A stretch of DNA of 23,727 nt, from the IMG/VR virus record IMGVR_UViG_3300012353_000007, positions 1 to 23,727 of that record. The stretch is one strand, 5' to 3'. Of the stretch, positions 2,821-12,375 are shown piece by piece (positions within the stretch are counted from its first letter, which is position 1; each line of letters starts with the position of its first letter). A program made the position numbers and the translations under genes. The DNA is from a virus. The notes under the pieces are model-generated. The model was not told where the DNA came from. It was given only the letters and a program-made list of their open reading frames with translations, and made no database searches.

Positions 2821-2996
2821 CACTGGGCGAGTACATCCAGAAGCTGCAGGCCCTGCCTGCGGAGTGGATGGACCTTCCGGTGCTATGGGACAGTTGGAAT
2901 GCGGACGCTCGCTATGGCCAGAATGAATACGTGGAGCCCGTGGTAATGCCAGCAAACTGGCTCCACCCAGGAGCCCCCCGACTGGTGAGGTTGTGA
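2817..2996 (+). CDS. hypothetical protein, 59 aa
   Basis: Starts at the ATG that overlaps the preceding TGA and ends in an overlap (GTGA) with the nuclease gene, so it is held tightly in the operon. The sequence begins MTLGEYIQKLQALPAEWMDLPV, which resembles small phage proteins that start with a helix and a short hydrophobic strand (LPVLWDSWN). It has five Trp or so in 59 residues, is acidic and has no Cys. No function can be assigned. Confidence 0.7.
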   Translation: MTLGEYIQKLQALPAEWMDLPVLWDSWNADARYGQNEYVEPVVMPANWLHPGAPRLVRL

Positions 2997-3838
2997 CCGA
3001 GCCCTACGTCTTCAGCTACTCCGAGCTGGAGGACTGGCGTCAGTGTCCCTTCAAACATGAGCTGAGGTGGACCGAGCGCTGGAAGGAGCCACGGGAAGGG
3101 GAGGCAGCGGCCCGTGGCCATCGCTGGCACGAGATCATGGAGTGCTACTACGGGTTCCGCATGGAGGGGAACGGTCCCCGGCGAGCCGCCCGTTGGACGT
3201 GGAACCGCCACCTCTTCGGGGACCGCTCGGACGAGGGCGAGCTGCTGCGCTGGATGTTCCGAGGCTACACCGAGCACTGGGGTGGCAACCGCGAGTGGCG
3301 TGTGCACGCGGTGGAGGTCCGCATGACCGTCCCGGTGTGGCAGAGCATCTCGATCAAGATCAAGGCCGACCTCATCGTGAGCCTTCGGTCCGATCCCAAG
3401 ATGCGGATGTGGCTGGTGGATGCCAAGAGCAGCAAGAACCTGCACTCGCAGGACGAGCTGCAGCTCCACCCACAGTTCCCTCTCTACACCTGGGCGCTGC
3501 GCAAGGTGGGCATCCCCGTGGTTGGCAGCATCCACGACAACGTCCGGACCCAGCGCAACGTCAATCAGGACAAGCAGTCCCTGGAGAGCCGGCATCGCCG
3601 CACCCTCCTGCACCACAACGCCAAGGAGCTGGAGACGGTGGCGCGCGATGCTTGGTACGACATCACCGCGATGATAGACACCAACCGGCAGGCGGGAGAC
3701 AGGCCCCGGCATCTGGATCCCGAGCGCTGCCGCTATCGCTGTCCCTTCACCGAGCCATGCATAGCCGGGATGCGTGGCACCCCAACCCGTCCCTTCCTGC
3801 ACGACCTAGGGTTCGTGCGGGAAACCACCCGCCATTAG
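2993..3838 (+). CDS. PD-(D/E)XK nuclease, Cas4/RecB-like, 281 aa
   Basis: Start GTG overlaps the preceding TGA. The core is that of the RecB/Cas4 exonuclease family: SYSELEDWRQCPF at 8-20, GHRWHEIME (42-50) for the first metal-binding His, ADLIV with D126, LVDAKSS with D143 and K145 (the D-x-K pair), and QFPLYTWAL (161-169) for motif QxxxY. Cys18 plus Cys246, Cys250 and Cys256 (CRYRCPFTEPC) have the one-plus-three arrangement of the 4Fe-4S cluster in Cas4 and AddB. The family degrades or resects DNA ends to give single strands. With the Sak4-like ATPase and SSB-like gene downstream it probably forms a phage recombination/end-processing module. No Cas1 or Cas2 is nearby, so a spacer-acquisition role is not supported. 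Confidence 0.85.
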   Translation: MTEPYVFSYSELEDWRQCPFKHELRWTERWKEPREGEAAARGHRWHEIMECYYGFRMEGNGPRRAARWTWNRHLFGDRSDEGELLRWMFRGYTEHWGGNREWRVHAVEVRMTVPVWQSISIKIKADLIVSLRSDPKMRMWLVDAKSSKNLHSQDELQLHPQFPLYTWALRKVGIPVVGSIHDNVRTQRNVNQDKQSLESRHRRTLLHHNAKELETVARDAWYDITAMIDTNRQAGDRPRHLDPERCRYRCPFTEPCIAGMRGTPTRPFLHDLGFVRETTRH

Positions 3839-3848
3839 GAGGAAGAAG

Positions 3849-4313
3849 GTGCCCCCTTCACACCACCACGCTGTCGACGACGAGTTCGCTCGCCTCATGG
3901 CCAGGGGCCTGACCCTCGACGATTCCCCGCCCAACCCCGACGAGGAGGCAGCGTTCCGGAAGATGGGCGAGGAGCTGCGCGAGGATCTGGGTGACAAGGT
4001 CGTCCCGCAGGACAACATCGCCATGGCCCGCACCTACTACGTGGATGCCCTGGACCGGGGCACCCTGCAGCGAGTCCAGGAGGACGCCGATGCCCACGGG
4101 GTGCCGACCAACGCCCAGATGAGCATGGGGACGCTGGAGGAGGAGCTTCAGGGCAAGGACCCGTCCGTCCGAGCGCTGGCCCAGATCATCTCCGCCGCCA
4201 CGAAGGTGGGCCACTGCCGCATCACCTACCGCTGGTGTGCCGGCCGGCTGGACAGCCCCGCCACGCCCCCGTCCGCGCCACCGGAGGAGGCACGTGGCGC
4301 CCACCGCGCGTAG
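3849..4313 (+). CDS. hypothetical protein, 154 aa
   Basis: GTG start after AGGAGGAAGAAG, 10 nt past the nuclease stop. The product is acidic, probably mostly helical, with a His-rich start (MPPSHHHAVDDEF) and a Pro/Ala-rich end (SPATPPSAPPEEARGAH). In between, residues about 32-75 carry charged helices and 110-133 a possible small fold with VGHCRITYRWC (two Cys). No family is recognised. Its last 20 nt overlap the next gene, whose ribosome site lies inside it. Position between nuclease and recombinase suggests a role in replication or recombination, but nothing in the sequence shows it. Confidence 0.75.
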   Translation: MPPSHHHAVDDEFARLMARGLTLDDSPPNPDEEAAFRKMGEELREDLGDKVVPQDNIAMARTYYVDALDRGTLQRVQEDADAHGVPTNAQMSMGTLEEELQGKDPSVRALAQIISAATKVGHCRITYRWCAGRLDSPATPPSAPPEEARGAHRA

Positions 4314-5178
4314 GCCCGCCCGGGGGCGCCGCCCCCGCCGTGCGGTCTCGCCCGAGCAGCACCCGGCCCCTTCGTGGCAGACTCTGGAGGAGCAGACCGA
4401 CTGGGCCAAGGTGGTTTACTACGGGGACTCGGGCACGGGCAAGACCACGGCCCTGGCGTCCATGGCCAAGATGGGTCCGGTCCTCGTGGTCAACGCCGAG
4501 TCAGGTCTGAAGAAGCGGCCCCTCCGGGGACTGGGCATCCCGGTGGACCAGATCCAGACCACGCGGGTAACCGGCTTCGACGACGCCGAGGCCCTCACCC
4601 GGGATCTGCACCAGCGCTTCGAAGACGACCCCTCCTGCCTGCTGGCTGTCCTGATCGACTCGATAACGGAGATCGAGACCGTTCTGATGAACGAGGGGCT
4701 GTCCGAGGAGGTCCGCAAGGCCCAGCTGCGGGGGGTGGACCGGGACGTCTTCCTCACAGAGGGGGACGACTGGGTCCGCAACAACGCCAAGATGCGCCGG
4801 TTCATTCGGCGGCTGCGGGACCTGCCCTGCCACGTGGGCTTCTCCGCCCTGTCTCGCCGCGACATCGACGAGGAGGGGGTGGTGATGTACCGCCCCGCCC
4901 TGGGTCCCCAGGTGGCCGGCGTGCTGGTCGCCTACTGCGATATCTCCGTGGCCATGCAGCCATTCATCGTCCAGCCCCGCCACAGGGACATCGTGTGGGG
5001 CATCACCCGTCGGCAGGGCAAGTGGTCGGGCAAGGATCGCTTCCGCATCCTGCCCGCTCAGATGCCCTACCCCTCTCTGGACCGCATCGTGGCGTACCTG
5101 GAGGGCAGTCTGACTGCCAAGACCGACCCGGAGGTGGCAGCCTTCCGCGCATACCGGGATAGGAACAAGGAGACCTAG
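4294..5178 (+). CDS. RecA-fold ATPase, Sak4-like single-strand annealing/recombination protein, 294 aa
   Basis: GTG start chosen for the upstream GGAGGAGGCAC. After an Arg/Pro-rich N-terminal tail (1-28), the core shows Walker A GDSGTGKT (44-51), PVLVVNAESG (62-71), and Walker B LLAVLIDSI (116-124, D122). The spacing, the GDSGTGKTT form and the NAESG strand are typical of the phage AAA/RecA-like family called Sak4, which promotes annealing with SSB. The usual length of these proteins is about 220-300 residues, so it appears complete. The SSB-like gene follows at once and the Cas4-like nuclease lies upstream, a common phage recombination trio. A general AAA ATPase is the alternative label. Confidence 0.8.
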   Translation: MAPTARRPARGRRPRRAVSPEQHPAPSWQTLEEQTDWAKVVYYGDSGTGKTTALASMAKMGPVLVVNAESGLKKRPLRGLGIPVDQIQTTRVTGFDDAEALTRDLHQRFEDDPSCLLAVLIDSITEIETVLMNEGLSEEVRKAQLRGVDRDVFLTEGDDWVRNNAKMRRFIRRLRDLPCHVGFSALSRRDIDEEGVVMYRPALGPQVAGVLVAYCDISVAMQPFIVQPRHRDIVWGITRRQGKWSGKDRFRILPAQMPYPSLDRIVAYLEGSLTAKTDPEVAAFRAYRDRNKET

Positions 5179-6382: not shown

Positions 6383-6807
6383 ACCCCATCCGGGGAGCGA
6401 AAGCCACCTTTACCATACGTGATGAATGCGGTCAGATTCATCCCGATGCCCTAGTCTGGGCAGGGTACGTCAATGGCCTGAAGATCATTCACGGTGCCCC
6501 GGTGCGGGTTCCCGTGTCGCCCCCCAACTCCTTCTACACCACAGCTGGTGGCGGTGTGATCAGCGAGAAGGAACTCAACCGCGTGCAGGCCCAGAGCTTC
6601 CGCAGCAAGGGCGCCGACAAGGCGTACGGGGAACTCCTCCTGTGGGAAGGGACCCGTCGTGTCCACATCAAGCATGCTCCCGGCCGGCGCCCAGTCCCGC
6701 TGCGCGGGAACCGCGACCCCGAGGATGGCGAGGAGGGCACTCTGGTAGCCAGTGTGCTCCTCAAGCCCGGAATGGCCGGATTCAACGACGGAGACGAGCC
6801 TCTGTGA
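6379..6807 (+). CDS. hypothetical protein upstream of polymerase, 142 aa
   Basis: ATG overlaps the preceding TGA. The protein is basic to neutral with beta-type segments (KATFTIRDECGQ, HPDALVWAGYVNGLKIIHG, VRVPVSPP) and a Gly-rich loop (TTAGGGV). There is one Cys and no obvious active-site motif. Its TGA overlaps the polymerase GTG (GTGA), so the two genes are translationally coupled, which could mean a polymerase-associated protein. No known family is recognised. Confidence 0.7.
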   Translation: MNPIRGAKATFTIRDECGQIHPDALVWAGYVNGLKIIHGAPVRVPVSPPNSFYTTAGGGVISEKELNRVQAQSFRSKGADKAYGELLLWEGTRRVHIKHAPGRRPVPLRGNRDPEDGEEGTLVASVLLKPGMAGFNDGDEPL

Positions 6808-8636
6808 TCTGGGCGCTGGATACCGAGACCTCGGCGCTGCACCCGGACGACGGGGGACGGGCCGTGGTTCTCGCCTGGGCCTGGCGCACCCCGGAGGGGA
6901 AGCTCCGGTCCCGCGCCGTGCCCACGCCCCACGCCACCAACCCCGAGTGGCCACGCCTGGGAGTGGACGAGTGGCGCAAGATAGTCCAGGGGCTGGCCAA
7001 CCGCGAGTCGCAGCTGGTCTTCCACAACGCCAAGTTCGATCTGCTGCATCTCGACTACATCCTGCGAGGCCAGGTCCAGCCGCGAGGGGAGCGGCTGCGC
7101 CCCATCCACGAGGCGCTGGTCGAGAACACCGTCTGGGACACCATGCTCGCCCAGAAGGTGATATCGGGGGAGAACAGCGCCGCCCTGAAGACCACGGCGG
7201 CCCGACTCTGGGGAGAGGCGGAAACGGCCGAGGCCGATGAGCTGGAGGAGTACTTTATCCAGAAACGACAGAAGACCAAGCCCCTGTACGCCGAGGCACC
7301 CTGGGACCTGGTCAAGAGATACGCCCGCAAGGACGTCAAGCTGACTCTCCGCTTGTTCGAGTGGCAGCAGGAGTACCTGGCCGGCTGCGCCCGCCCCTCC
7401 ACCCGCGCCCTGGTGGCGCGCGAACTAGCTTTCATGAAGGTGGTGCTGGCTATGGAGCAGCGTGGCGTGGCCTTCGATGCCGACCGCGCCCGAGAGAGCT
7501 CTGAGCTGCTCCAGCCCGCTATCCAACGGGTGGCCAGCCAACTCCCCTACCGACCCACCCTGCCAGCGGCCAAGACCTACTACTTCGGCTCCCCCGGAGA
7601 GGGAGGCCTAGGCCTGCAGCCCAAGTCGCTCACCAAGAAGGGTGCCCCTGCCCTGTCCGAGCGTGACGTGGGAGCCATGGCCCAGGAGGGAGTGCCCTAC
7701 GCAGCCGAGCTGCACCGATACCAAGCCCTCATGGCCATGAACACCAAGTGGTTCGTCCCGTGGCCACGGATGATGGGGGAGGATGGCCGGGTTCGCGCCA
7801 GTTTCAATCTGACCAACGTCCGATCGCACCGGCTATCCGTGCAACGCTTCCAGGTCCAAGCCATTCCCCACATTCGACATTTCGTGGATCTGGAGCTGCC
7901 CGAGGGCGTAGCCCTTCCCCGCGAGCTGTTCCGAGCCAAGCCCGGCTACCGCCTGTGGGAGATAGACCTGTCGCAGGGCGAGGTCCGGATAGCCACGGCG
8001 ATAACTGGGTGCCGGGCCATGAACGAAGCCATCCAGAGCACCGACGTCCACGGAGAGACCTGCAAGCGCATGTTCGGGGTAACCGAGGAGGCGCCCAACT
8101 GGAAGAGCCGGCGGGACATGGCCAAGCGTCTCACCTTCGGCACCATCTACGGGGCCGGTCCCCAGAAGCTGGCCGATACCGCCTACCTGGACACCGGGGT
8201 TCGCATCCCCGTCTCTGAGATGAAGCGGATGGTGGATGACTACAAGCGGGTGTTCCCCGAGTTCTTCATCTACGCCCGCCAAGCTGAGCGATCCTGCGAG
8301 CGTCTGGGCTACGTCACCCTGGTATCGGGAAAGCGCCGGTACTTCAACTTCGGTGCTCCGCTCTGGGAGAAGGCCTACCGGGCATTCAACGCCGTCATCC
8401 AGGGAGACCTGGCCGAGACCATGCGGGACGTCATGATCAAGGTGGAGCGCGAGATCGGGGGCGTGCTGCTCCTCCAGATCCACGACAGCCTGGTGGTGGA
8501 GCTGCCCCGGCGCTCCCCCGATGGCACCGACACGGAGCACGCCCAGTTCATTCGGGACATCATGGTCAACACCTATCATCGGCAATACGGCGTGGTCTTC
8601 GACGCGGAGGCCGGGCTATGGGAGGACAAGAAGTGA
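6804..8636 (+). CDS. family A DNA polymerase (PolA type, DpoZ candidate), 610 aa
   Basis: The start is GTG 6804, which overlaps the previous stop; the frame opens further upstream but the exonuclease motif starts 5 residues after this GTG. The 3'-5' exonuclease is complete: D6/E8 in ALDTETS, HNAKFD (74-79), WDT with D112, and Y173-D177 in YARKD. There is no 5'-3' exonuclease domain. Polymerase motifs: A, DLSQGEVR (388-395); B, R437, K441, F445, Y449 in RDMAKRLTFGTIYG; C, QIHDS (558-562). Two motif positions differ from canonical DYSQIELR and HDE: Gly replaces Ile next to the steric-gate Glu, and Ser replaces the Glu after HD. Presence with purZ and a MazG-like gene points to the DpoZ group, which copies 2-aminoadenine DNA in other phages, but substrate preference cannot be read from sequence. 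Confidence 0.95.
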   Translation: MIWALDTETSALHPDDGGRAVVLAWAWRTPEGKLRSRAVPTPHATNPEWPRLGVDEWRKIVQGLANRESQLVFHNAKFDLLHLDYILRGQVQPRGERLRPIHEALVENTVWDTMLAQKVISGENSAALKTTAARLWGEAETAEADELEEYFIQKRQKTKPLYAEAPWDLVKRYARKDVKLTLRLFEWQQEYLAGCARPSTRALVARELAFMKVVLAMEQRGVAFDADRARESSELLQPAIQRVASQLPYRPTLPAAKTYYFGSPGEGGLGLQPKSLTKKGAPALSERDVGAMAQEGVPYAAELHRYQALMAMNTKWFVPWPRMMGEDGRVRASFNLTNVRSHRLSVQRFQVQAIPHIRHFVDLELPEGVALPRELFRAKPGYRLWEIDLSQGEVRIATAITGCRAMNEAIQSTDVHGETCKRMFGVTEEAPNWKSRRDMAKRLTFGTIYGAGPQKLADTAYLDTGVRIPVSEMKRMVDDYKRVFPEFFIYARQAERSCERLGYVTLVSGKRRYFNFGAPLWEKAYRAFNAVIQGDLAETMRDVMIKVEREIGGVLLLQIHDSLVVELPRRSPDGTDTEHAQFIRDIMVNTYHRQYGVVFDAEAGLWEDKK

Positions 8637-8716
8637 ACCCCTGCGACAAGCACGGAGAGCTGGTCTACTACGTGAATGGGCAGAAGAAATGCCTGGCCTG
8701 CGGAGGTGACTGCTGA
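8633..8716 (+). CDS. zinc-ribbon mini-protein, 27 aa
   Basis: GTG overlaps the polymerase stop (GTGA) and the stop TGA overlaps the purZ ATG (TGATG). The product begins MNPCDKHGELVYYVNG and ends CLACGGDC, giving C-x2-H-like and C-x2-C pairs expected to hold a zinc ion. It contains the AGGTGA before purZ within its 3' end, so it also carries the ribosome site of purZ. Its position wedged between polymerase and purZ with overlaps on both sides argues that it is a real gene. Role unknown. Confidence 0.65.
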   Translation: MNPCDKHGELVYYVNGQKKCLACGGDC

Positions 8717-9849
8717 TGGCCGGATTCGGCCGCATCCAGGTGGTGGTGGGCGGCCAGTATGGGTCGGAGGGCAAGGGGGCGGTCTGCAAGTGGCTGGCCC
8801 AGGAGAGCCCCGGCCTGGTCTGCGCCCGGGTGGGCGGTCCCAACGCCGGGCACACCGCCTACGACGGGAAGGGGCGGGGGTGGAAGCTCCAGCAGGTGCC
8901 GGTAGGCGCCCTGGTCCAGGACGGCCCCCTGGTTATAGGGGCAGGATCCGAGGTAGATCCCCTGTTGCTGGGTCGCGAGATCTGTGCCCTCGAGGAGGCG
9001 GGCATCCCGGTGGCCTCGCGTCTCCTGATAGACCAAAGCGCCACCATCCTCACCGAGCAGCATGGCTGGGCCGAGACCGAGGGCCTGGCCCACGGGGAGG
9101 GGGGACTATCCCGGCGCATAGGCAGCACAGGCAAGGGAGTGGGCGCTGCCCGCGCCGATCGCATCTGGCGCAAGGCGTTCACTGTGAGCAGCGACCTCCA
9201 GGTGAGAGGGGAGACTGGCAGCACCTGGAAGGTCTGGGATCCCGACCACGGAGCGGTGGCCGCTCGCATCCCGGTCACCGACACCGCTCTCTACCTGGAG
9301 GGCGCCCTGGCCGACGGTAGGATGGTCCAGATAGAGGGAACCCAGGGATATGGCCTGGGCCTCCACACAGAGAACTACCCCTTCGTGACCTCAGGGGACT
9401 GCCGAGCCATCGATATGCTGGCGCAGGCCGGCGTCTCGCCCTGGTCGGTCCCCGAGGACCATCTCGAGGTATGGGTGGTGTTCCGTACCTTCCCCATCCG
9501 CGTGGCCGGCACCTCGGGGCCGCTGCGGGGAGAGACCACCTGGGAGGAGCTGGGGCAGCCACCCGAGATCACCACGGTCACCCGCAAGCAGCGACGAGTG
9601 GGCGCCTGGGACCACGAGCTGGCCCGCGCCGCCCTGCACGCCACCGGCGCCTACACCTACCGGGGCGCCACCCACGTGGCTCTGCTCTTCCTCGACTACC
9701 AGTTCCCCGAGCTGAAGGGCTGCCTGGATCCCCATCGCGTGGAACAGGTGGCCGGGGAGTTCCTGGCTCAGCGGGAGAACGAGTTGGAGCACCAGATTCG
9801 GCTGGTCGGGACCGGCCCCAACCACATCGTAAGGAGAAAGAACCGCTGA
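8716..9849 (+). CDS. purZ: PurZ, (2-amino)adenylosuccinate synthetase-like, 377 aa
   Basis: PurZ is the phage relative of adenylosuccinate synthetase that joins dGMP and aspartate, with ATP, to give the precursor of 2-aminoadenine deoxynucleotide. Sequence signs: GQYGSEGKG (13-21), the P-loop, with Ser17 where PurA has its catalytic Asp (GDEGKGK); GPNAGHT (41-47) retaining the catalytic His46; STGKGVG (137-143); EGTQG (207-211); NYPFVTS (220-226); TRKQRRVGAWD (289-299) for the base/phosphate region. The length is 377, shorter than the about 430 of cellular PurA. Loss of the Asp at this site is the reported hallmark of PurZ. The zinc-ribbon gene precedes and the MazG-like gene follows with TGATG overlap. 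Confidence 0.93.
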   Translation: MAGFGRIQVVVGGQYGSEGKGAVCKWLAQESPGLVCARVGGPNAGHTAYDGKGRGWKLQQVPVGALVQDGPLVIGAGSEVDPLLLGREICALEEAGIPVASRLLIDQSATILTEQHGWAETEGLAHGEGGLSRRIGSTGKGVGAARADRIWRKAFTVSSDLQVRGETGSTWKVWDPDHGAVAARIPVTDTALYLEGALADGRMVQIEGTQGYGLGLHTENYPFVTSGDCRAIDMLAQAGVSPWSVPEDHLEVWVVFRTFPIRVAGTSGPLRGETTWEELGQPPEITTVTRKQRRVGAWDHELARAALHATGAYTYRGATHVALLFLDYQFPELKGCLDPHRVEQVAGEFLAQRENELEHQIRLVGTGPNHIVRRKNR

Positions 9850-10382
9850 TGGCAGGACCCCAGGACAGCCGCAATAGTGGCACCGTGCCCAACCGCGATC
9901 TCGGATCGCCGGTGGCGTTCCTCCGAGCGGAACATCGTGAGGGCAAGCACGCGGGGCGCATGCTGAACGGCGACTGCCCCGATTGCTATCCGAACGATTC
10001 CGTGCAATCCGACCACGGACAGCCGGTCTGGGAATCCACCGATCCCGCCTCCGTGACCGAGACGGTGCGCCTGCTCTGGGAGGACCTCAACCGAGCGGAG
10101 ATCAACAAGGTCCTACCCAAAGCAGTGGAGTACGGGGCCGCCGATCTGGATCTCATGGGCCACGCTCTGGGCCTGATGCTGAACTCCCCTCGTGCCCGCG
10201 AGGCGAAGTGGACGCCGGCCGAGCTGCAGGAGATGGCCTCGGCCTTCTACGCCCTGGGCAAGGTGGCCCGGGTCTTCGGGGCCTTCGCCCAGGGCCAGGT
10301 CCCCTCCGAGGACTGCTGGCATGACCTGGGCGTGTACGCGAGGATGGTCCAAGTGATCCGTCGCCGAGGGGGATGGATGTGA
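9849..10382 (+). CDS. MazG-like nucleotide pyrophosphohydrolase, MazZ candidate, 177 aa
   Basis: ATG overlaps the purZ TGA. After a loose N-terminus (1-66, with CPDC at 43-46), the helical part has LNRAEINKVLPKAVEYG (residues 80-96), ADLDLMGHAL, then ELQEMASAFYALGKVARVFG and EDCWHDLGVYARMVQVIRR as separate helices. Acidic residues E94, D99, E125/E128, E154 and D159 could be the metal ligands of a MazG-type all-alpha NTP pyrophosphohydrolase. The same pattern (KAxEYGxxDL, HDLGVY, RxxGGW) is, as I recall it, seen in MazG-like proteins of actinophages. In Z-phages a MazG family enzyme, MazZ, turns dGTP into dGMP for PurZ. The direct purZ neighbour supports this, but activity is not proven by sequence. 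Confidence 0.7.
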   Translation: MAGPQDSRNSGTVPNRDLGSPVAFLRAEHREGKHAGRMLNGDCPDCYPNDSVQSDHGQPVWESTDPASVTETVRLLWEDLNRAEINKVLPKAVEYGAADLDLMGHALGLMLNSPRAREAKWTPAELQEMASAFYALGKVARVFGAFAQGQVPSEDCWHDLGVYARMVQVIRRRGGWM

Positions 10383-10705
10383 GGGTAGCCCTAGTCGGCC
10401 CCATAGACCTGGGAGGAGGGGCCACGGAGACCCAGATCCAGGCCAACCTCGATCGCTTCGACAAGGCAGAACTGGTCCTAGCAGGACGAGGTCACACAGT
10501 TTACAACCCCGCTCGGCGAGGACGAGTTCATCGCTACGAGTGGAGCCGGGCCGATTTCATGCGGGCCAGCGTGAAGGACATCTTGCAGGTGGAGGGCATA
10601 GCGCTGCTGCCGGGCTGGGGCGCCTCCCCCGGGGCCACCGTGGAACTCTCGCTGGCCCGGCAGCTGGATCTGATCGTCATTCACATCCAGGAGGAAGAGC
10701 TGTGA
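10379..10705 (+). CDS. DUF4406 protein, deoxyribosyltransferase-like fold, 108 aa
   Basis: GTG 10379 overlaps the previous TGA and is preferred to ATG 10373, which would sit directly on the GAGGGGG. The product shows RVALVGPIDLGGGATE, a phosphate-binding-like start; RGHTVYNPARR; FMRASVKDILQVEGIALLPGW in the centre; and GASPGATVELSLARQL, the usual final helix of the DUF4406 family. This family is a small relative of nucleoside 2-deoxyribosyltransferases and often occurs in phage nucleotide regions. The E in ATVE is the residue that aligns with the transferase active-site Glu. Whether it acts on nucleosides is unknown. Located between the MazG-like gene and the dUTPase, it may belong to nucleotide metabolism. 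Confidence 0.8.
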   Translation: MRVALVGPIDLGGGATETQIQANLDRFDKAELVLAGRGHTVYNPARRGRVHRYEWSRADFMRASVKDILQVEGIALLPGWGASPGATVELSLARQLDLIVIHIQEEEL

Positions 10706-11370
10706 CCATATTCAGCGACTATCTGGCCCGGCGCCGGGCCCGCCGCCAAGCCGCCCTGGCACCCCCCGCCCCGGCCTCCGGTCAGACCGCACCGGACCCA
10801 CGGGAGCGCCTAGGCCCGGCCCGGCACGCCCTGCGGCGCGCGGACCCCACAGCGGGTCTCCGCTCCGCCTACGCCATGGAGCCGGAAACCGAGCTGGAGG
10901 CTACCGGTCGCGCCCTCCGAACCCTCCCTCTGCATTTCGCCCCTGCTGGTGAGATGGCCGTGGCGATGGAGGACCTGCATCTGCCCTCTCGCACCTACCC
11001 CGACGACGCCGGTCTCGACCTCTTCGTCACTCAGGACGCCGTGGTGCGCCCGGGGGAATTCGTCGACATCCACTGCCATCTCGCGGTGGAGCTGCCCCCC
11101 GGGGTCTGGGCCCTGGTCATAGGCCGCTCCAGCACCCTGCGCAAGCGCGGTCTCATGGTCAATCCGGGGATCATCGACACCGGGTACCGAGGCGAGCTGT
11201 TCACCGGGGTGTGGAACATGGGACCAGCCATGGCCCGGGTAGAGTTCGGGGAGCGCCTGGCTCAGCTCATCCTCTTCGACAACGTTACCGCCCGGTACTT
11301 CCCTCACCCGGTGGACCAGCTGTCGCCATCCCTCCGTGGCAGTCAGGGATTCGGGAGCTCGGGCCGATGA
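10702..11370 (+). CDS. dut: dUTPase with N-terminal extension, 222 aa
   Basis: GTG overlaps the previous TGA and has AGGAGGAAGAGCT before it. All five dUTPase motifs are present: I DAGLDL (102-107), II GRSST (141-145), III GIIDTGYRGEL (156-166), IV GERLAQLIL (183-191), V RGSQGFGSSG (212-221). The enzyme hydrolyses dUTP to dUMP and keeps uracil out of DNA. The catalytic domain is of normal length, but about 75 residues come before it (Arg/Ala/Pro-rich, then helical), unlike typical phage dUTPases of 140-160 residues. This could be an added domain or a domain-like tail. Overlaps the next gene by ATGA. Confidence 0.93.
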   Translation: MTIFSDYLARRRARRQAALAPPAPASGQTAPDPRERLGPARHALRRADPTAGLRSAYAMEPETELEATGRALRTLPLHFAPAGEMAVAMEDLHLPSRTYPDDAGLDLFVTQDAVVRPGEFVDIHCHLAVELPPGVWALVIGRSSTLRKRGLMVNPGIIDTGYRGELFTGVWNMGPAMARVEFGERLAQLILFDNVTARYFPHPVDQLSPSLRGSQGFGSSGR

Positions 11371-11600
11371 GAGATCGGGTCCCTCTGGATTTCGAGACCA
11401 ATCCCGGAGCTAGCGCTCGCGAAGCTACCTTGCTCGAGCGCATCGACGACCTGTGGAAGGCCCAAGCACAATCCGCCGAGAAGATTGTCACGCTGGAAGC
11501 TCGCGTACTGGAGCTCGAGCGAGTCTTGGCCCTGCAGGTGGGGATCGCCACTTCTTCCTGGACTCGTCAGTCCCAGGTCGAGGAGAAGCGCCCGTACTGA
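11367..11600 (+). CDS. coiled-coil protein, 77 aa
   Basis: ATG overlaps the dUTPase TGA. The central region is a heptad-rich helix (REATLLERIDDLWKAQAQ, then AEKIVTLEARVLELERVLALQ) that should form a coiled coil, ending in a short polar tail (RQSQVEEKRPY). It has no Cys and no transmembrane segment. It is the last gene of the rightward operon, followed by the convergent terminator. Function unknown. Confidence 0.75.
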   Translation: MRDRVPLDFETNPGASAREATLLERIDDLWKAQAQSAEKIVTLEARVLELERVLALQVGIATSSWTRQSQVEEKRPY

Positions 11601-11608
11601 GACATAGA

Positions 11609-11643
11609 GGAGCCCTCTCTCCCGCATTGGGTTTGAGGGCTCC
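11609..11643. terminator. bidirectional terminator hairpin between convergent operons
   Basis: GGAGCCCTC (11609-11617) and GAGGGCTCC (11635-11643) form a 9-bp stem with a 17-nt loop, between the rightward stop at 11600 and the leftward stop at 11662. CCCCTT follows on the + strand, a weak T tract. It is placed as a terminator shared by both strands. Confidence 0.7.
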
Positions 11644-11661
11644 CCCTTGGGAGGAAGAAGG

Positions 11662-12375
11662 CTAGTAGATGAAGGTCTCTAGCGGGATGGTCGCCAGATA
11701 CACGGTCCGGAAATCAACCACATCCCACGCCTTGTAGTTCATCTCCGAGACCACGAAGGACCCATCGGCGTTCACCGATTCCACGTAGGCCACGTGACCG
11801 ATGGGACCCTCCCAGGTCACCATGATAGCCCCCACCCGAGGCGTCTTCCCCTCCGGAAACCCCATTCGAGCCGCGTTGGGTCCCCACTGCCCGGCATCAC
11901 CGAACCAGGGGATTGGGCGCTTGTTGGCCACGTACCAGGTGCAGTACCCGAAGCTGAAGTGGTTGCCCACGGCGCCCACCGCTGGGCGAGGTCCCGGGGC
12001 TGGTTCCGCCCCGGAGGGCGCCGCCAGCTGCGCGGGGGGAGGCGGCGGGGGAGGGGCCGTGCCCCCCGGCATCCGCAGCACCTGTCCCGGCGCTATCTGG
12101 TCGGGATTGGCCACGGTATCGCTGTTGGCCAGCTCCGCTGCGGCCAGATCCACGCCCCAGGCCCAGGCCAGCGTGGAGAAGGTGTCTCCCGGCTGGACGG
12201 TAACCGTGGGGGGAGGTGGCAGGGGAGGTGGCGGGGGCTGCGAGCACCCAGCCGGCAGCTCCAGCAGATAGCAGGAGTCGAGAACGGCCCCACGCGGGGC
12301 CTCCGCCCCAGGGTCTGCCGGGGTCTGGGTCGGGGCGGCCACAAGGAAGGCGATAGATGCCAGAATGCCGATCAT
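11662..12375 (-). CDS. secreted LysM-CHAP peptidoglycan hydrolase, 237 aa
   Basis: Start ATG 12375, chosen because GGAGGT lies 7 nt before it; a GTG 24 nt upstream has no such site. Residues 1-26 form a signal-like hydrophobic segment. A LysM domain (about 57-103: TVTVQPGDTFSTLAWAWG...) follows a Pro run, and a second Pro run leads to a CHAP domain (about 140-237) with Cys145 in GYCTWYVANK, His194 in GHVAYVES and Asn213 in EMNY as the catalytic set. LysM binds glycan; CHAP cleaves peptide bonds in peptidoglycan. An exported hydrolase of this type is either an endolysin using the host Sec system, or a host-wall enzyme. It is the last gene of the leftward lysis region. Confidence 0.85.
   Translation of the reverse strand: MIGILASIAFLVAAPTQTPADPGAEAPRGAVLDSCYLLELPAGCSQPPPPPLPPPPTVTVQPGDTFSTLAWAWGVDLAAAELANSDTVANPDQIAPGQVLRMPGGTAPPPPPPPAQLAAPSGAEPAPGPRPAVGAVGNHFSFGYCTWYVANKRPIPWFGDAGQWGPNAARMGFPEGKTPRVGAIMVTWEGPIGHVAYVESVNADGSFVVSEMNYKAWDVVDFRTVYLATIPLETFIY

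Follow-up and report, generated by a model that had tools for sequence, protein, structure and literature searches.

Does a chain of overlapping genes on a virus fragment encode the replacement of adenine by 2-aminoadenine (Z) in DNA, and if so, by which of the known routes? The window, by which we mean the whole stretch of DNA analysed, is a 23,727-base fragment from IMG/VR, and its minus-strand genes for a tape measure, a connector and a LysM/CHAP lysin mark the source as a tailed phage. The plus strand carries six open reading frames (ORFs) chained end to start, with start/stop overlaps at 8633, 8716, 9849, 10373 and 10702; the single overlapped gene run of the original prediction therefore holds at every junction. 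The same prediction had placed a Z cassette at 6804-10382, where the polymerase and purZ genes that it listed are confirmed, but this interval ends too early, as the genes at 10373-10705 and 10702-11370 complete the known PurZ0 pathway. Context genes farther upstream on the plus strand, as called from Pfam and PHROG, are a PD-(D/E)XK nuclease (2993-3838) that belongs to this phage's replication module and a Sak4-like AAA ssDNA annealing protein (4237-5178), the real start of which is probably farther downstream. In our judgement the segment is very probably a DNA-precursor and replication cassette of the PurZ0 type, the catalysis and the Z in virion DNA being predicted from its genes.

The order of the genes matches that in Theresita, IndiRoo and Ghobes. 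Cultured actinophages as well as IMG/VR contigs share it, so the arrangement is not due to chance. The closest known systems are the PurZ0-type Z phages, namely Gordonia phages Ghobes and Archimedes, Arthrobacter phage Wayne, Microbacterium phages Sucha and Theresita, and Streptomyces phage Galactica. Common to these and the window, in the same order, are PolA, PurZ0, a protein family that we call family X (gp51 of Ghobes; missing from Wayne), an NDT-fold slot (in some) and DutZ, with identities of 41-49% for PurZ and 26-33% for family X. Unlike the PurZ0-type isolates listed here as comparison, the window fragment is without PurB. Phages S-2L, phiVC8 and SH-Ab 15497 share with the window the replacement of the catalytic Asp of PurA by Ser, and the same predicted product, but they differ from the window in having a separate PurZ clade, DatZ together with MazZ or DUF550, and a polymerase that is either DpoZ-2 or PrimPol.

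The purZ gene (8716-9849) encodes a protein of 377 aa that carries GSEGKG, with Ser17 where PurA has its catalytic Asp, as originally described, and that matches PF00709 (8e-42) and phrog_1211 ('2-aminooxy adenylosuccinate synthetase', 3e-82). Ser17 alone is not diagnostic and was rejected as proof of PurZ, because the GSEGK motif is also found in PurA paralogs on the chromosomes of many bacteria. In a 106-row tree, the window protein falls inside the phage PurZ0 clade (SH-aLRT 100), which stands apart from the PurZ proteins of S-2L, SH-Ab 15497 and phiVC8 and from the bacterial paralogs, with no exact branch supported for it within that clade. It is full-length and retains 70 of the 72 strongly conserved PurZ0 positions; its top match in the PDB, 7vf6, agrees in aligned sequence with PurZ0 of Archimedes. 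By tblastn, phage genomes yielded 216 records, the top ones, from Streptomyces, Curtobacterium, Arthrobacter and Microbacterium phages, being 41-44% identical, and in IMG/VR an alignment query found loci where a single-sequence query returned nothing. By sequence, the protein is a PurZ0-type 2-aminoadenylosuccinate synthetase, with its substrate use predicted.

Some observations on related loci stand on their own. An adenylosuccinate lyase (PurB) gene lies near purZ0 in many IMG/VR loci (L017, L021, L022, L033, L040, L046, L053, L095 and others). One contig from a Verrucomicrobia MAG (L128, 13,569 bases analysed) carries PurZ0, X, DmtZ, DutZ and PurB together, and so probably comes from a PurZ0 phage and was binned into that MAG. 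The bacterial Ser-type PurA paralogs, spread over many phyla, have an RNase_H_2 plus AAA protein upstream in 55 of 79 loci and a dCTP-deaminase-like protein downstream in 51, both neighbours being present in 43 (e.g. L131, L136 at 7956-11852, L139 at 7891-12149, L169, and other genome loci within L129-L207). The upstream protein gave weak PADLOC candidate matches (PDC-S44, dCTPase), and the operon is possibly a defence or nucleotide system, on which our literature search found no paper.

Directly upstream of purZ are the polymerase gene and a very short ORF. The polymerase (6804-8636, GTG start, 610 aa) has a 3'-5' exonuclease domain (PF01612, 1e-10) and a polymerase domain (PF00476, 5e-43), and gave no 5'-3' exonuclease match, in agreement with the family A assignment made originally. 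A model built from PurZ0-phage polymerases, with that of the window left out, scored the window polymerase at 407 bits, and six polymerases of non-Z phages at 125 or less; in the tree it sits near the base of the PurZ0-phage clade, DpoZ-1 (SH-aLRT 100). We thus assign it by sequence to the DpoZ-1 clade, from which a preference for dZTP over dATP would be expected. A Tyr to Phe replacement at the steric gate of helix O is the one change common to both DpoZ clades (Czernecki et al., PMC8599892). The window polymerase retains Tyr there (RRDMAKRLTFGTIYG), and thus lacks the Phe of the published clades, as do 11 of 30 other PurZ0-phage polymerases tested; Tyr is found in Galactica, and not in Wayne or Ghobes. 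Three changes on the polymerase tree explain this pattern, from which it follows that either Phe is dispensable or the members with Tyr are less selective; since both published DpoZ clades have replaced the gate Tyr by Phe, the Z selectivity of the window polymerase is less sure. The short ORF that follows (8633-8716, GTG start at 8633, 27 codons) does contain CxxH...CxxC, which weakly favours the zinc ribbon proposed for it, but no comparable ORF was found between polymerase and purZ in other PurZ0 loci, just unrelated Cys-rich ones such as the HNH gene of Wayne. For want of a conserved counterpart in relatives, we rejected the zinc ribbon as a conserved component of the cassette.

The two genes at the downstream end bear on how dATP would be depleted. 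The original prediction was right that DatZ is absent from the window, a genome fragment in which no match was found, but not that DatZ is needed, since according to Poubanne et al. (PMC12884076) the PurZ0 branch uses DutZ and DmtZ in place of DatZ and MazZ; the absence of DatZ is therefore not a gap. These authors show that dATP and dGTP are both hydrolysed by the DutZ of PurZ0 phages, and that DmtZ either turns dAMP into adenine or moves its deoxyribose phosphate onto the Z base, with the activity of Ghobes DmtZ abolished by Y6A. The window dUTPase (10702-11370), which has an additional N-terminal stretch of about 90 aa, is nearest to PurZ0-phage DutZ (127-151 bits, up to 58% identity; best other among the matches listed, 82 bits), and its conserved DutZ positions are intact. 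These match scores group it with DutZ of PurZ0 phages, which predicts the corresponding activity. The gene at 10373-10705 occupies the dmtZ position. Its product matches DUF4406, is related by profile (hhalign) to both DmtZ and DUF4406, and in an AlphaFold model with a DmtZ alignment as input matches solved NDT and MilB structures (E 2e-5 to 6e-4). Unlike the PurZ0-type isolates, it has lost two residues of the Tyr/Asn/Glu triad of DmtZ, with Ala6 where Tyr stands in 51 of 51 DmtZ proteins and Ser66 where Asn stands in 48 of 51, while Glu91 and Asp12 are retained; four DUF4406 proteins of other phages keep the Tyr. From these residues, the dAMP hydrolase/transferase activity has probably been lost or altered. 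A separate observation concerns Ghobes gp53 (L006:42692-43177), which is annotated as a deoxyuridine triphosphatase and whose sequence aligns with NDT-fold DmtZ domains.

The protein encoded between purZ and the dmtZ position (9849-10382, 177 aa) had been called MazG-like, a label that did not survive comparison with known families. It matched no Pfam or PHROG family, hhalign to MazZ, MazG and DUF5664 gave less than 1%, which is control level, and the MazG, DUF550 and DUF5664 profiles were unmatched; on these searches we rejected a MazG/MazZ identity. DUF5664 fills the same slot in Wayne, and was rejected as a relative since it has no profile similarity to family X. Instead, the protein belongs to an all-helical family linked to PurZ0. 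Phage genomes searched by tblastn contained 31 matching records, from Microbacterium, Gordonia, Streptomyces, Micrococcus and Curtobacterium phages and from no Arthrobacter phage, and wherever the matches of both X and PurZ showed the genus, the counts per genus were the same. From IMG/VR, 80 loci were selected solely for similarity to PurZ0, near-duplicates among them, and every one carries family X. In the reverse direction, the 69-row alignment of X was too diverse for locus search and a DNA motif was used instead; contigs fetched by this motif alone had X in 57/57 and PurZ0 in 55/57, with X at the edge of the available DNA in the remaining two. Outside Arthrobacter phages, X was found next to PurZ0 at all the loci examined.

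An AlphaFold model of X has a confident helical core (pLDDT >90 across most of residues 66-177). A fold search against the PDB gave no match reaching E 1, and among solved structures no sequence or fold match was credible, the two sequence matches being designed helical proteins. In a viral fold library, family members ranked first, followed by weak matches that included DUF6378 proteins (probability 0.72-0.87). The likeness between the X and DUF6378 profiles is remote and collinear (hhalign probability 52%, column-shuffled and reversed controls <1%), and too weak for membership; the Pfam DUF6378 model reached a best E of 0.12, in one member. The commonest weak PHROG match was phrog_474 (best E 2e-4, 16 of 69 members at E <=1); in mycobacteriophage Violet, whose relatives also carry this remotely similar family, it coincides in position with DUF6378.

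Could these genes be accounted for in other ways? One alternative accepts that dZTP is made, and holds that a polymerase without Z selectivity and an incomplete depletion of dATP leave adenine replaced in part, so that phages with a gate Tyr would be mixed A/Z phages. The retained Tyr, here and in the 11 relatives, and the degenerate DmtZ slot both point this way. Against it, Z selectivity is not thought to be set by a single gate residue, Phe in place of Tyr is also tolerated where there is no Z (PMC8599892), and the conserved positions of DutZ are intact; we consider partial replacement unlikely, though worth keeping in mind. The possibility that the PurZ homolog is an ordinary or bacterial-type Ser PurA paralog, in a phage with canonical DNA, draws on how common such paralogs are in bacterial chromosomes. 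They form clades apart from phage PurZ0, however, and lie mostly in another operon, and the polymerase, DutZ and X encoded alongside PurZ favour the phage pathway, which makes this explanation highly improbable.

The 2-aminoadenine reading itself is upheld by the placement of PurZ and the polymerase in the right clades, but the model taken from S-2L, phiVC8 and SH-Ab 15497 is not, since both proteins are on the PurZ0/DpoZ-1 branch. In an S-2L-type cassette, a MazZ at 9849-10382 would make dGMP, and DatZ, encoded elsewhere in the genome, would remove dATP. The gene does adjoin purZ and superficially resembles the MazG pattern; against this stand its unmatched profiles and the lack of a DatZ match in the PurZ0-type Z phages examined, complete genomes (Sucha and Ghobes) included, and we give this scheme hardly any credence.

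We therefore return to a PurZ0-type cassette, of a kind already known but in divergent form, in which family X, the Tyr-gate polymerase and the degenerate DmtZ slot are new. From homology, clade membership, gene order, co-occurrence, predicted folds and residue status, we infer every catalytic step, as well as Z in virion DNA. The DutZ-type dUTPase would hydrolyse dATP, depleting it, and convert dGTP to dGMP, which PurZ0 would join with aspartate to form N6-succino-2-amino-dAMP. Host PurB and host kinases could then yield dZTP, some related phages having a PurB of their own, and the DpoZ-1 clade polymerase would replicate the genome, placing dZTP opposite T. Family X would accompany the pathway as a constant partner, and the DUF4406/NDT-fold protein would hold the dmtZ position with its activity probably lost or changed. 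Judged from the genes of this fragment, dZ is likely to replace dA in virion DNA.

The 2026 description of Z-DNA synthesis in PurZ0 phages names PurZ0, DpoZ, DutZ and DmtZ, plus DUF5664 in Arthrobacter phages, and we found no sign of family X in its main text (PMC12884076). The most likely reading of X is that of a constant PurZ0 partner, which would assist the pathway by acting on nucleotides or else on one of the two enzymes PurZ0 and DutZ. A bolder proposal, to which we give slightly less than even chances, is that X belongs almost universally to the PurZ0 pathway as a component not recognised before, required for Z-DNA synthesis in a new enzymatic or regulatory role, and that deep-branching Tyr-gate members make Z-DNA without the typical polymerase and DmtZ features. 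The divergent polymerase and DmtZ slot offer a test of which features Z-DNA synthesis really requires, and family X, of which that main text gave no sign although it is found with purZ0, may be a missing component that can be tested in cultured Gordonia and Microbacterium phages.
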